From Candidatus Collierbacteria bacterium GW2011_GWB1_44_6 (lineage in GTDB: Bacteria; Patescibacteriota; Microgenomatia; UBA1400; MFAQ01), in the NCBI GenBank assembly GCA_000998025.1, contig LCJG01000015.1, forward strand, positions 1 to 40,889: a stretch of DNA of 40,889 bases, written 5' to 3'. This document shows, in pieces, positions 1 through 33,529 of the stretch (its first letter is position 1; each line of letters begins with the position of its first letter). The translations under genes were made by a program, and so were the position numbers. The notes beneath the pieces were generated by a model. It was not told where the DNA came from and searched no databases. It saw only the letters and a program-made list of their open reading frames with translations.

Positions 1-220
1 TTATTTCTCTGTCTCCGGTAAAGATGTGGTGATAAAAAGATTCCAGATTCCACTTCCAGTGGACCTGTCCTGAGCCCGTCGAAGGATTAAACCCGCTTGC
101 TAAACCTCCACACTTATCAGAAGCTTCAAAAATGACTACCTCAAAATCCTCATCCACCAAAGATACTCCGCAGGAAAGTCCAGTAAACCCTCCTCCTATT
201 ACAGCTATCCGCTTCCTCAC
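1..220 (-). CDS. FAD/NAD(P)-binding amine oxidoreductase (UDP-galactopyranose mutase / protoporphyrinogen oxidase-like), 3' end outside window
   Basis: Manual minus-strand translation from GTG at 220: VRKRIAVIGGGFTGLSCGVSLVDEDFEVVIFEASDKCGGLASGFNPSTGSGQVHWKWNLESFYHHIFTGDREI; GxGxxG dinucleotide motif and GGLAxGF; open to window edge. Not in ORF track. Confidence 0.85.
   Translation of the reverse strand, partial: MRKRIAVIGGGFTGLSCGVSLVDEDFEVVIFEASDKCGGLASGFNPSTGSGQVHWKWNLESFYHHIFTGDREI
66..88 (+). repeat. Hairpin repeat family copy, in-frame within FAD oxidoreductase CDS
   Basis: GTCCTGAGCCCGTCGAAGGAT; stem TCCT/AGGA. Confidence 0.75.
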
Positions 221-8085: not shown

Positions 8086-9888
8086 ATGTCAAGTCTAATC
8101 AGAAATTTTTCTATCATTGCTCATATTGACGCCGGAAAATCTACGCTGGCGGATCGACTTATGGAAATTACCGGTGCGGTAAAGGGCGATAAAATGACCC
8201 CGCAATTGTTGGATAGTAATCCGATTGAGAGAGAACGGGGTATCACCATAAAACTTGCCCCCGTATCAATGACCTATCATGGCTACAGCTTAAACCTAAT
8301 TGACACTCCTGGCCACGTCGATTTCAACTACGAAGTTGAGCGAGCCCTCCAGGCCTGCGAAGGTGCCATATTATTAGTGGATGCCACTAAGGGAGTTCAG
8401 GCGCAAACGGTCGCCAATCTCCGCTTGGCAAAAAACCTTGGTCTGACCATCATTCCTGTGATCAACAAAATTGATGCTCCTTTGGCCGACGTCCCCGCCG
8501 CCACCCGCCAAATAAAACTTCTACTTGGATTACAGAGTGACCCTCTTTTTGTCTCCGCCAAAACAGGGGAGGGCGTCGAAAACTTATTGGAAAAAATTAT
8601 TTCTGACCTCCCCTCTCCAAAAACATCTGTCATCCCGAGCGTAGTCGAGGGATCCCACTCCACCGCACCATTTCAAGCCCTCGTCTTCAACTCCACCTTT
8701 GATACTCACCTGGGAGTCATTGCTTTTGTCAAAATAATCACCGGAAATTTAAATGCTGGTGACAAACTATCCTTCTTAAGTTCCGGCCAGTCTCTAACTT
8801 CTCAGGAAATAGGCATTTTTTCTCCAGGCAGAACAGAGAAAAAAATACTCACCTCTGGTAGTGTCGGATATATCATTACCGGGCTGAAGGACATCCGTAA
8901 TGTGCTCGTCGGAGATACCTTGTGTCTTTCCCATCAAGTCAAGCTGGTTTCCCCAATTCCTGGCTTTCGGAAAATTCACCCTAATGTCTTTCTGGATTTC
9001 TATCCCGCCGAAGGTTCTCAGTATAGAGACTTGCTCGATGCTCTGGAGAAATTGAAACTAAACGACTCATCTCTTACCACTCAAGGAATAAACTCTCCCA
9101 TTTTGGGGCAAGGGGTCAAGGTTGGCTTTCTGGGTATGCTTCACTCCGAGGTGGTCGGTGAAAGACTTGAGAGAGAATTTAATCTTCCGGTTATTTCCGT
9201 TTCTCCTTCAGTTGAATATAAGGTAGCAGTTCGCTCCGGTGATGAAAAAATATTTAGTTCACCAGCCGATTTTCCCGATCCTGCCACAATAGTCCAAGGC
9301 TACGAACCTATGGCGGCAGTCAATATCGTCGTTACTTCTCCTTACGTGGGCGCTGTCATGGAACTCTGCCAGGATCTTCGTGGCAATTTAGTTAACGTTT
9401 CCTATCTAGACCAGTTGGTAGAAATCGATTATTTTTTGCCTCTAATTGAAGTCATTACCGCACTTCACGACAGTCTCAAAAGCGTTTCACAGGGTTTTGC
9501 GTCCATGGACTACGAATTAGCCGGTTGGCAAGAAGCGGAGCTCGTTAAGCTCGACGTTTTACTCAATCACGAGCTCTTTGCACCCATGAGTGTCATTACG
9601 GTTAGAGAAAAAGCCTACCAAAAAGGTAAAAAGGTAGCCGAGAAGTTAAAAGAAGCTATACCTAGGCAACAATTCGAAATTCCTATTCAGGTTGCCATCG
9701 GCGGCCAGATCGTGGCCCGCGAAACCATCAAGGCCTACCGCAAAGATGTTGATGCCAAGCTTCATGGGGGAGACTTTACCCGGAATCTAAAACTCCTCAA
9801 TAAGCAGAAAAAAGGCAAAGCCCGCATGAAGCAGTTCGGCAAAGTCAGCGTGCCCCAGGAAGCCTTCCTGGCCATCGCCAAATCCTAG
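8086..9888 (+). CDS. lepA: Elongation factor 4 (LepA)
   Basis: ORF 600 aa; NFSIIAHIDAGKSTLADRL, DTPGHVDF, NKIDAP, C-terminal GKARMKQFGKVSVPQEAFLAIAK. Confidence 0.95.
   Translation: MSSLIRNFSIIAHIDAGKSTLADRLMEITGAVKGDKMTPQLLDSNPIERERGITIKLAPVSMTYHGYSLNLIDTPGHVDFNYEVERALQACEGAILLVDATKGVQAQTVANLRLAKNLGLTIIPVINKIDAPLADVPAATRQIKLLLGLQSDPLFVSAKTGEGVENLLEKIISDLPSPKTSVIPSVVEGSHSTAPFQALVFNSTFDTHLGVIAFVKIITGNLNAGDKLSFLSSGQSLTSQEIGIFSPGRTEKKILTSGSVGYIITGLKDIRNVLVGDTLCLSHQVKLVSPIPGFRKIHPNVFLDFYPAEGSQYRDLLDALEKLKLNDSSLTTQGINSPILGQGVKVGFLGMLHSEVVGERLEREFNLPVISVSPSVEYKVAVRSGDEKIFSSPADFPDPATIVQGYEPMAAVNIVVTSPYVGAVMELCQDLRGNLVNVSYLDQLVEIDYFLPLIEVITALHDSLKSVSQGFASMDYELAGWQEAELVKLDVLLNHELFAPMSVITVREKAYQKGKKVAEKLKEAIPRQQFEIPIQVAIGGQIVARETIKAYRKDVDAKLHGGDFTRNLKLLNKQKKGKARMKQFGKVSVPQEAFLAIAKS
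8629..8654 (+). repeat. Hairpin repeat family copy, in-frame within lepA
   Basis: GTCATCCCGAGCGTAGTCGAGGGATC; stem ATCCC/GGGAT; identical to 12657 copy. Confidence 0.9.
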
Positions 9889-9915: not shown

Positions 9916-11344
9916 TCAAAACTCTACGGTAAACATCGCAGCCGTGTTTGGGCCAAAAAACTCCGAAGTTTTCCAAGTCGCCGAGGTGGTCGCTACCGTA
10001 AGCGTCCGGCTTGCACCTAGAAAATCAGTCCTCGTAATCTTAAAGTTTAGTTTCGGTAAATTCTCAAAGGTCATCGGCACCGCTTCGGAGTGAATTCTCA
10101 AAGGTCATCGGCACCGCTTCGGAGTGAGAACCTTTTGGGTCATAATTAACCACCATAATTTTTAGATTTCCTTTATCGTCCGTGGAGGCAATACTTTTTA
10201 CCCAGCTTCCCTCCCCGGCCACACTCATCCGGTAAGGTCCCAAATTATTTAAAAATTGGAGCGCGAAGTATCTCGGTTTCTTTTCCGGAGCACCATATTT
10301 TTCATGAGTCAGAATTCCCCACCTACCCCAGTATTTTTCTGTACCGGGACCGTCTTTAATTTCAAAAAGGAAAGCTCTGTCCACGACCCCCATCATTGCC
10401 CGTGCGCCCGCCAGAGTGTGAATTGCACCAAATCTTCCGTCATAGCCCTTGTCAATTTCGCTATTATGTCCCCATTCGGTGACGTAAAATTTTAGATTGA
10501 CGAGGGCTGGAATATTTTCCGCCCACCTTTTCGCCTGTAGCACGTCTTTCTCATACTGTTCCAAATCGTAAGCGTACCGATGCCAGCTCAAAAAATCGAG
10601 TCGAAGGTTATTTGCGTCCACATACTTGATTAGTCTCTCTTCCCAGTTTTGATAGAGGCCAGTCGTTGCGGGTCCACCAATTTCAAATAGATTTGTCCCT
10701 CTCACTCTAGCCGCAGCTCGTGCCGAAACGGCATACATCTCTAGGTAATTCCTGTCACCATAGGTTTTGTATCCTCCAAACAAATCGGGCTCATTCCATA
10801 CTTCATAGATCACCCCATCAATATTTTTTTGACTTCGGCCGCTATAGTGTTCTATGGTCGCCTGGACTAGCTGCCCCCACTCACTCCAATCTTTTGCCGG
10901 AGATACTATATCGCTGGTCGCCATAACAGGCGGCATGTATGACAAAGATAAGAAGGGTTTTGCTCCTGTTGCCAAAATAACATCCACCGCTTGGTCCAGA
11001 CCTGACCAATCAAAGGTAAGTTGCCCATCGTCAGTTCTGGAGACCACCTTAAACGCGTCATATATATGATCGAGTCTAATATATTCCATCCTCAATGCTT
11101 TGACCGCATCCACTACGGGCGCAAGCATTTCTTTGGGCTCTTCCCCCCCTTGCCCTATGTTTCTCCATGGTTGAGGCATTTTCCCAAGTACGCCTTCATA
11201 ATTAAAGACCAAATTAGCAGGGAATCCAGCCGCCTTACCGACAAATTGAACTGCTGATGGAATTGCCACTACTACCACAATGATCACCAATAGTCCGACA
11301 ATCAGCGGGGTTAACCCCCTAAGAATTTTTTTTCGATTAGCCAT
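9916..11344 (-). pseudogene. GH39-like glycoside hydrolase, frameshifted by a 34-bp tandem duplication
   Basis: ORFs 10064..11344 and 9916..10101 share HSEAVPMTFEN; VWNEPDLFGG and FYVTEWG acid/base and nucleophile-like motifs; deleting one 34-nt copy gives 1395 nt (465 codons). Confidence 0.8.
10060..10127. repeat. Perfect 2 x 34-bp tandem direct duplication
   Basis: attctcaaaggtcatcggcaccgcttcggagtga at 10060-10093 and 10094-10127. Confidence 0.97.
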
Positions 11345-11407: not shown

Positions 11408-12133
11408 ATGGATCTAACTGAGCGCCAGATTCTCATCATCAAGACTATTGTCGAAGAATTTACCGAGTCAGCTGAGCCCGTTGGTTCTGTTGCTTTGGAA
11501 AATAAATACAGGTTAGGGGTTTCTCCGGCTACTCTCAGAAACGAAATGGCGAGTCTTGAAGAAAAAGGATTCTTATCTCAACCTCACGCCTCTTCAGGTC
11601 GCATTCCCACTCCTCTTGCCATCAAATTCTATGTCAACGAGCTCATGAAAGAAAAGCAGCTTAGTGTGGCCGAAGAAGTTGGTGTCAAATCTCGGGTTTG
11701 GGATCACCGGTTTAATCGGGATGACTTGCTCCATGAAGCCACCAAAGTTTTGGCAGAAAGAACCAAGGCGCTTTGTGTCGCCGCTTTTGATGAGGGGCAA
11801 AGCTTCCATTCTGGTTATGCCAATATTTTTAATGCTATTGAATTCAAAGATCTGGACATCACTCGAGAAATCTTTTATCTTTTAGACGAGCAAGCACGTC
11901 TTATGGATATCTTTGGTCGCGCGGCCGGGAACAACCCTATACATATTTTGGTAGGGGATGAAATGGGAGTCAGTCTATTTCAACCTGTGAGTTGTGTTTT
12001 TGCCGACATTCACGTCAGTGGTCGCAGGGGTAGCCTTGGAATTATTGGTCCGAGCCGACAAGAATACGATCGCAATATACCCTTTGTTCGATATGTTGCC
12101 AATTTAGTAAATCAAATAGCCGGAGAATGGTAA
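11408..12133 (+). CDS. hrcA: Heat-inducible transcription repressor HrcA (short form)
   Basis: ORF 241 aa; LTERQILIIKTIVEEFTESAEPVGS..L......VSPATLRNEMASLEEKGFLSQPHASSGRIPT. Confidence 0.92.
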   Translation: MDLTERQILIIKTIVEEFTESAEPVGSVALENKYRLGVSPATLRNEMASLEEKGFLSQPHASSGRIPTPLAIKFYVNELMKEKQLSVAEEVGVKSRVWDHRFNRDDLLHEATKVLAERTKALCVAAFDEGQSFHSGYANIFNAIEFKDLDITREIFYLLDEQARLMDIFGRAAGNNPIHILVGDEMGVSLFQPVSCVFADIHVSGRRGSLGIIGPSRQEYDRNIPFVRYVANLVNQIAGEW

Positions 12134-12672
12134 AAAAAGATAAAAAATCCAACGTCAATAACCCTGATCGCGTCGAAACAGCTCAGGAGATTCAGCTTAA
12201 TAATCTTTCCAGACTGATTGAGCTTGAAAAACGGTTCGAAGAAAATGAAGAGAAGCTCGCTTCTACAGAAGAAAAATACCTGAGAATACTGGCTGATTAT
12301 CAAAATCAACAGCGCCGCCATAAAGAGCAAGAGTCTCAAATAATCAAGATGGCTTCGGCCTCCCTACTCGAAAAACTTTTATTAAACATGGATTCCTTAC
12401 AACTAGCTCAGTCTCATCTCAAAGATAAGGGGCTGCAGATGGTCATCGAGCAATTTATGGTTGTATTCAAAGAAGAAGGCTTGGCTCTCATCGAGACAGA
12501 TGGTAATGACTTTGACCCAATCACCATGGACTGCACCGAAATAGTCCCGGGGAAAAAAGATCAAGTGGTCGAAACTGTTGCGCCTGGCTACTTTCTCTTT
12601 GACAAGGTTCTCCGACCTGCTAAAGTCAAAGTCGGCTCAGGAATTAATAACACACCGTCATCCCGAGCGTAG
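12127..12672 (+). CDS. grpE: Nucleotide exchange factor GrpE
   Basis: ORF 181 aa; hrcA-grpE-dnaK-dnaJ order; C-terminal EIVPGKKDQVVETVAPGYFLFDKVLRPAKVKVG. Confidence 0.9.
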   Translation: MVKKDKKSNVNNPDRVETAQEIQLNNLSRLIELEKRFEENEEKLASTEEKYLRILADYQNQQRRHKEQESQIIKMASASLLEKLLLNMDSLQLAQSHLKDKGLQMVIEQFMVVFKEEGLALIETDGNDFDPITMDCTEIVPGKKDQVVETVAPGYFLFDKVLRPAKVKVGSGINNTPSSRA

Positions 12673-12682
12673 TCGAGGGATC
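12657..12682 (+). repeat. Hairpin repeat family copy containing the grpE stop codon
   Basis: GTCATCCCGAGCGTAGTCGAGGGATC; TAG at 12670-12672. Confidence 0.9.
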
Positions 12683-12729
12683 TCAAACAACTAATACGTT
12701 TTAAAAATTAATTAAAAAATAAAAATAAT

Positions 12730-14649: not shown

Positions 14650-14668
14650 AATATTAATGTAAACCAAT

Positions 14669-14745
14669 CGTCATTGCGAGACGCGTATAGAGTCGAAGCA
14701 ATCCATCCCCTGGATCGCCACGTCGGAGTACATCCTCGCGATGAC
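14669..14745. repeat. Composite palindromic repeat (two inverted half-units)
   Basis: CGTCATTGCGAG ... CTCGCGATGAC; inner GCAATCCA...TGGATCGC. Confidence 0.9.
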
Positions 14746-32846: not shown

Positions 32847-33467
32847 ATGAAGACAGTCGGCCAAATTATCCGTACCGCTAGGCAAAAGAGAGGCCTCTCC
32901 ATTGATCAGCTATCATCTTTAACCAAGATTGATGGAAAATATATTAATGCTCTGGAACAAGATAACTACTCAAGTCTTCCCTCAGAGACTTTCGCAAAAG
33001 GGTTTATCAGAAACCTCAGTCTCAGGTTAGATCTTAACCCGAGCGAGTTAGTTGCCATTTTTCGTCGTGACTTCAAACATCCGGAACAAAAAGTACCGTC
33101 CAAGCGTCATCAAAGATTTGTTTTGCAAGGCATTACATCTCAGATTCTTCCCTTTGCTCTGGGATGCGTAGCCTTCATCGTTTATTTGATTTTTCAATTC
33201 CGTGCCATTGTCGTTCCTCCGAAACTAACCATCTCTCAACCTGGAGACGGCAGCGTCTTAGTCTCCCCGGTCGAGATATCGGGTGATACTGCAGTCGATG
33301 CTCTTGTCTACATAAACGAAGAAATTAAAGTCAAACCGGATTCTTCGGGACATTTTTTTACTCGCATCAATCTTCCCGTGGGTGAGACAGAAATAGGAAT
33401 AAAGGCCACCAACCGTTTTTCCCGCTCATCCTCGAAAATCCTTAAAATCACCATCATCTCTAAGTAA
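32847..33467 (+). CDS. RodZ-like helix-turn-helix membrane protein
   Basis: ORF 206 aa; RTARQKRGLSIDQLSSLTKIDGKYINALEQDNYSSLPSETFAKGFIRNLS, TM, extracellular Ig-like tail. Confidence 0.8.
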   Translation: MKTVGQIIRTARQKRGLSIDQLSSLTKIDGKYINALEQDNYSSLPSETFAKGFIRNLSLRLDLNPSELVAIFRRDFKHPEQKVPSKRHQRFVLQGITSQILPFALGCVAFIVYLIFQFRAIVVPPKLTISQPGDGSVLVSPVEISGDTAVDALVYINEEIKVKPDSSGHFFTRINLPVGETEIGIKATNRFSRSSSKILKITIISK

Positions 33468-33473
33468 CCCAAT

Positions 33474-33509
33474 CGTCATTGCGAGAAGGTACTCCGACGT
33501 GGCAATCCA
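33474..33509 (+). repeat. Hairpin repeat half-unit
   Basis: CGTCATTGCGAGAAGGTACTCCGACGTGGCAATCCA; stem ATTGC/GCAAT. Confidence 0.88.
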
Positions 33510-33529
33510 GAAAATGTTAATATAAATCA

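Follow-up and report, generated by a model that had tools for sequence, protein, structure and literature searches.

A REP-like hairpin repeat in frame in a flavoenzyme gene of Candidatus Collierbacteria

Introduction

At the first bases of a contig from Candidatus Collierbacteria bacterium GW2011_GWB1_44_6, a gene for an FAD oxidoreductase encodes the peptide NPSTGSGQV, which a first-pass annotation took for the product of a short repeat inserted in frame. This locus raises the question of whether the peptide is indeed an insertion, to what kind of element it belongs, and how such an element could move. The window, that is, the whole stretch of DNA analysed here (40,889 nucleotides), is contig C15 of this assembly from its first base; the source genome comprises 965 kb in 67 contigs and is an estimated 78% complete.

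Results

The oxidoreductase gene crosses the end of the contig, and three features define the locus.

1–220, minus strand: N-terminal part of an FAD/NAD(P) oxidoreductase gene (PF01593 type), with a GTG start at 218–220; the gene continues on contig C35
68–86, minus strand: 19-bp REP-like element, an exact match, TCCTGAGCCCGTCGAAGGA on the plus strand and TCCTTCGACGGGCTCAGGA on the coding (minus) strand
62–88, minus strand: codons of the extra peptide NPSTGSGQV, from the translation; missing in most homologues

The last 99 bases of C35 are identical to the first 99 bases of C15, which is most simply explained by overlap in the assembly, and the two parts together form an ORF of 424 codons without a stop. 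The region is therefore coding and a single locus, which removes the concern that it might be noncoding in the complete gene. The overlap also means that the matches to the 19-bp repeat on C35 and C15 are one copy counted twice; we thus reject two genomic copies in favor of one. The product matches Amino_oxidase (PF01593, flavin amine-oxidase domain) at 1.4e-22, and a sequence search returned no homologous solved structure. The open minus frame reads GGLASGF-NPSTGSGQV-HWKWNLESFYHHIF, in which the 19-mer codes for the core of NPSTGSGQV and positions 59–88 code for the loop NPSTGSGQVH. The repeat thus lies in frame in the oxidoreductase, as first proposed, and within the proposed interval of 63–90, from which the true nonapeptide span (62–88) departs by one to two bases. 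Written in hairpin orientation on the plus strand, the copy is TCCT-GA-GCCCG-TC-GA-AGGA; it is solitary.

To place this loop among its relatives, we gathered homologues from the family, order, and class, 55 of which have a parsable loop between GF and WxW. The link is four residues long in 47 of the 55, five in one, and ten here; relatives do run from GGLxxGF almost straight into WxW, as noted earlier, and an ancestral origin of the peptide is ruled out. In a tree computed without the loop columns, the gene groups with G007, G011, and G012 (support 82/82, modest), and the insert is absent from the near relatives G007 and G012. The homologue in G010 carries the loop GPSASSGKV, coded by CCTTCAGCTAGTTCAGGA, at exactly the same point and clearly similar at the DNA level; G010 itself groups with the insert-free G006 and G009 (support 98/93). 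Two further loops, NPSATKNSN in G013 and YPPMNSS in G011, are longer and start at the same codon, with weaker resemblance. The loop has either been hit more than once or lost one old insert repeatedly. A single recent insertion would not account for the long loops of G010, G013, and G011, and the compared sequences suggest that this site has been subject to insertion over time, not in one clean step. A single ancient insertion in the ancestor of the genus, since lost or eroded in most lineages and kept intact here by chance or constraint, would explain why the longer loops of G010, G013, and G011 share a starting codon, and why G010 is so similar in DNA. It requires several independent losses on the tree, however, and third codon positions are only 40 to 44% identical to those of G007 or G010, whereas the copy retains every fixed base of the wide consensus; we consider it rather unlikely. 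An intact consensus against this background would instead point to a recent insertion or to constraint on the DNA. The short-loop homologues are all divergent, the comparison having reached no relative more than 90% identical. The net gain is 18 nt (six codons), one base less than the 19-bp element, and so is not a simple 19-bp insertion. Other long loops of this enzyme occur in G158, G195, and G244; we do not claim these as palindromic inserts, the sole hint being G244 (z −2.2).

An AlphaFold model of the G013 homologue, whose loop is equally long, has a mean pLDDT of 69 (moderate confidence), and its extra residues 44 to 50 fall below 50 between two short strands. The idea of a surface loop fits this model, which is compatible with a flexible loop at the insert position but does not amount to proof.

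We next consider the structure of the repeat itself, whose unit is NNNY-GA-GCNNG-TC-GA-RNNN: a four-pair foot, a GA/TC step, a two-base bulge, and a five-base loop. The bases just outside the repeat covary: 27 of 29 copies have T-A or C-G, against 14.9 expected under independence. Covariation was tested on bystander copies only, that is, copies of the core GAGC-NN-GTCGA with flanks other than the searched CCT/AGG, which avoids a bias from the search word. Of 170 bystander copies, 53 have a perfect foot of 4 bp or more, in 17 different stem sequences, as compared with a mean of 3.9 and a maximum of 11 in 1000 shuffles, and none with four altered cores. One copy by itself folds with no better energy than shuffled sequence, and the structural claim thus rests on covariation. 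By this measure the repeat is shown to conform to a predicted bulged hairpin whose tip, GAGC-NN-GTCGA, is fixed and whose foot varies but stays base-paired. Neighboring copies are inverted in 83 of 107 pairs (55 + 28) and tandem in 24, are mostly 10 to 48 bp apart, and often differ in their feet; this inverted layout is that of REP dimers. The element is thus REP-like both as an imperfect palindrome backed by covariation and in forming inverted dimers with short spacers.

The repeat is not confined to this genome. The pattern CCTTCGACNNGCTCAGG has 62 exact matches (with the overlap copy counted twice) in 16 of the 88 genomes of the order, and the reversed pattern, used as a control, has none in the same 88 genomes, which places the repeat far beyond chance. 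The GTDB matches listed fall in at least 11 phyla, the phylum being taken in some cases from the genus: Bacteroidota, Pseudomonadota, Actinomycetota, Chloroflexota, Cyanobacteriota, Armatimonadota, Acidobacteriota, Eremiobacterota, Myxococcota, Planctomycetota, Zixibacteria, and Patescibacteria. Copies in Pseudomonadota commonly have another flank, CCGTTCG. Exact copies per genome range from 0 to 274, with high numbers in Microlunatus flavus (274), Microbacterium mangrovi (103), Sphingomonas sp. Root241 (35), and SAR202 bin87 (31). An array of more than ten exact copies in M. mangrovi (G266:C20:58827-59732), spaced by 36 bp and then by ~71 bp, is a tandem amplification beside dispersed copies. 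The element is also common in IMG/VR viral contigs (at least 120 matches), and carriage between hosts by phages or prophages is accordingly possible. The two one-mismatch matches in the source genome overlap no tRNA, which excludes a tRNA origin for them.

A tip conserved across phyla and a high copy number in some genomes could also reflect a sequence-specific host function, such as an uptake word, a protein-binding site, or an RNA signal, that keeps genic copies in place. Copy number does not hold to any conserved level, however, and is one in the source genome; the foot, unlike an uptake word, varies freely with pairing kept; and an Rfam search of the window matched no family. A host function is improbable on these grounds.

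Insertions of the same net size are found in other conserved proteins. EF-P in G020 has a loop six residues longer than in G018 and G019, MnmA in G086 has 33 residues as compared with 27 in ten relatives, and MreB has six residues more than solved MreB, such that each of the four genes measured in this order, including the oxidoreductase, has a net gain of six codons, one base short of the element's length. In all four, the insert is in frame, leaves the coding sequence intact, and is absent from homologues, as in RPEs; for MnmA and EF-P, the insert-free comparisons are short loops in divergent relatives only. Further in-frame copies, less exactly measured, lie in isopentenyl-diphosphate isomerase, a UvrD-like helicase, a glycosyltransferase, and a MacB-like permease. 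The idea that the repeat contains few stops is confirmed by its six frames: one always reads TGA, three never stop, and two do so rarely, for only 1 of 16 loop dinucleotides, leaving five of six frames usable. Readable tags of the inserted peptides are PSTSSGQ, LRQAQD, FDKLRT, PELVEG, and LSLSKG. Exact matches also occur in NadE (GPERVEG, L029) and GyrB (MPELVEGGH, L116), which we take to be native motifs rather than inserts and which caution against word counts alone. That a native loop of the oxidoreductase merely happens to fit the pattern, much as these two do, is nevertheless hardly credible, since most homologues have a loop six residues shorter and the copy fits at its paired end bases as well.

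The window also contains copies of a sister subfamily, the first of which had been assigned to the same family as the oxidoreductase repeat.

8629–8657, plus strand: sister-subfamily element GTCATCCCGAGCGTAGTCGAGGGATCCCA, in frame in lepA (8086–9888, plus strand), peptide VIPSVVEGSH
12657–12685, plus strand: second copy of the lepA subfamily, at the 3' end of ORF 12127–12672

The lepA repeat shares the core of the hairpin, and hence the superfamily, but belongs to a different subfamily, with a three-base loop and a C-G replacing a T-A pair; as noted earlier, it reads the other way relative to its gene. Most copies of this subfamily start with (C/T)GTCAT, and within the genus they have the tail CTCACTCCA. 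The second copy supplies the last codons (PSSRA) and the TAG stop of ORF 12127–12672, which is grpE-like by its position before dnaK, and has therefore moved or created the stop codon. The LepA loop, between LPSP and ALVFNS (L359–L372), is short in G008 and G014 and holds different hairpin repeats in G000, G007, G006, and G013: an in-frame ATTGC...GCAAT hairpin in G007, two hairpins in G013 (z −3.95 and −2.83), and another in G006 (z −2.84). These comparisons suggest that hairpins have repeatedly inserted into this loop of a conserved GTPase. The G007 hairpin is like another, CGTC-REP-like family in the window, CGTCATTGCGAG...GGCAATCCAG, found at 14659–14745 and 33464–33510; one site lies between dnaK and a DnaJ-like gene, and an inverted partner is present. 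Separately, positions 10056–10123 contain two head-to-tail 34-bp copies, 97% identical, at the end of ORF 10064–11344, and since 34 bp is not a whole number of codons, the C terminus of this ORF is probably changed.

Finally, we asked what might move the element. REPs are thought to need a resident RAYT. On the classical REP/RAYT scheme, a genome-encoded Y1 HUH REP-associated tyrosine transposase would mobilize the element, as proposed for the REPs of E. coli and Pseudomonas. The anatomy is shared, with a bulged hairpin and inverted pairs, and Y1 genes are common in the order, with a PF01797 match in 14 of 16 element-bearing genomes and few such genes in the large, element-free family f9. This association is gone outside f9, however (14/16 versus 22/30), and the hairpin is found in 0 of 30 Y1 loci. 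RAYT profile matches accompany only 2 of 238 element loci, one of which (L217, a weak neighbor) has a truncated RAYT-like ORF ~0.5 to 0.7 kb from an inverted pair. At the listed positions of the order, Y1 genes do not lie next to elements, and the GTAG tag is absent. Y1_Tnp is absent from 7 of the 12 element-bearing genomes searched and has no match in M. flavus, M. mangrovi, Sphingomonas sp. Root241, or SAR202 bin87. The Y1/RAYT searches thus returned no mobilizing enzyme, and because genomes with 100 to 274 copies lack a detectable Y1/RAYT, the mobilizer cannot be a resident Y1/RAYT in every host. The empty Y1 loci, the two RAYT matches, and the Y1-free high-copy genomes together weaken the case for a RAYT, which we regard as distinctly unlikely.

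Discussion

These analyses show that the nonapeptide of the oxidoreductase derives from a 19-bp REP-like element that is widespread and present here as a lone copy, in a loop that most homologues lack, and they support the first-pass interpretation overall. Taken as a whole, the locus is probably best explained by a REP-like, nonautonomous hairpin element that came to lie in frame and is tolerated in a loop of the flavoenzyme, a reading drawn from comparison of genomes. Such an element would be nonautonomous and would spread in the form of a folded single-stranded hairpin, on which an enzyme provided in trans would act. Intragenic copies would survive only where the net change in length is divisible by three, the reading frame is among the five open ones, and the peptide falls in a tolerant loop; the insert is predicted to have no enzymatic role and to be merely tolerated. 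With a 274-copy genome that lacks a detectable Y1 and a tip shared across phyla, the mover of transposase-less REPs becomes a directly testable question, and the peptide tags allow inserts to be spotted in conserved proteins, where they are otherwise seen as odd loops. The sequence as a repeat, or its peptides, was not found described in the literature searched; the consensus figures of PMC3733652 lie outside that search, and an earlier description is possible.

Among known systems, the closest in anatomy are the GTAG REPs, BIMEs, and REPINs with their RAYT (TnpA-REP), as described in PMC2817692, PMC3116915, PMC8266576, and PMC3733652. In E. coli, a Y1 transposase recognizes REPs as single-stranded hairpins with a bulge, the bulge being essential (PMC8266576); intragenic REPs are known as well (PMC3733652). 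Such REPs and the present element alike are imperfect bulged hairpins of 20 to 40 bp in mosaic inverted pairs, noncoding, nonautonomous, and sometimes intragenic. The present element differs in that GTAG lies next to the hairpin in only 1 of 139 GTDB copies among the matches listed and in 2 of 29 from the order, that the tip is fixed and the foot free to vary, and that several high-copy genomes have no detectable RAYT beside the element or even elsewhere in the genome.

The CGTC REPs, which include Rickettsia RPE-4 and RPE-6 and Neisseria dRS3, are likewise short hairpins, mostly in inverted dimers, with intragenic copies. What moves them has been noted as a similar puzzle, since this class apparently has no transposase of its own (PMC3733652). 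They have the tag CGTC (or TGTC/CCTC) and an 8- to 9-bp stem starting with AT. The lepA subfamily resembles them in its (C/T)GTC start followed by AT, whereas the oxidoreductase element has CGTC in 7 of 139 copies among the matches listed and a foot that does not begin with AT.

Rickettsia RPEs are palindromic repeats kept in frame as extra peptides in genes of many functions, and RPE-1 is described as longer (PMC3733652). The present element is like them in its in-frame genic copies but differs in sequence, in the addition of about six residues, and in a family that spans many phyla. The Y1 elements of the IS200/IS605 family have single-stranded hairpins recognized by structure (PMC8266576), to which the hairpin considered here may be compared by analogy. 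It has no coding capacity, however; no autonomous partner with the same ends was found; and the Y1 gene of the source genome (on contig C40) has no such hairpin nearby.

In appearance and arrangement the element resembles a REP, and within genes it behaves as an RPE does; we read it as a REP-like, nonautonomous element of a third type, with neither a GTAG nor a CGTC tag. We tentatively extend this reading, at slightly less than even odds, to a third, untagged superfamily with a GAGC-N2/3-GTCGA tip and a covarying foot, present in at least 11 phyla, moved by a non-Y1 enzyme or host process, and repeatedly adding six-residue peptides at tolerant loops.
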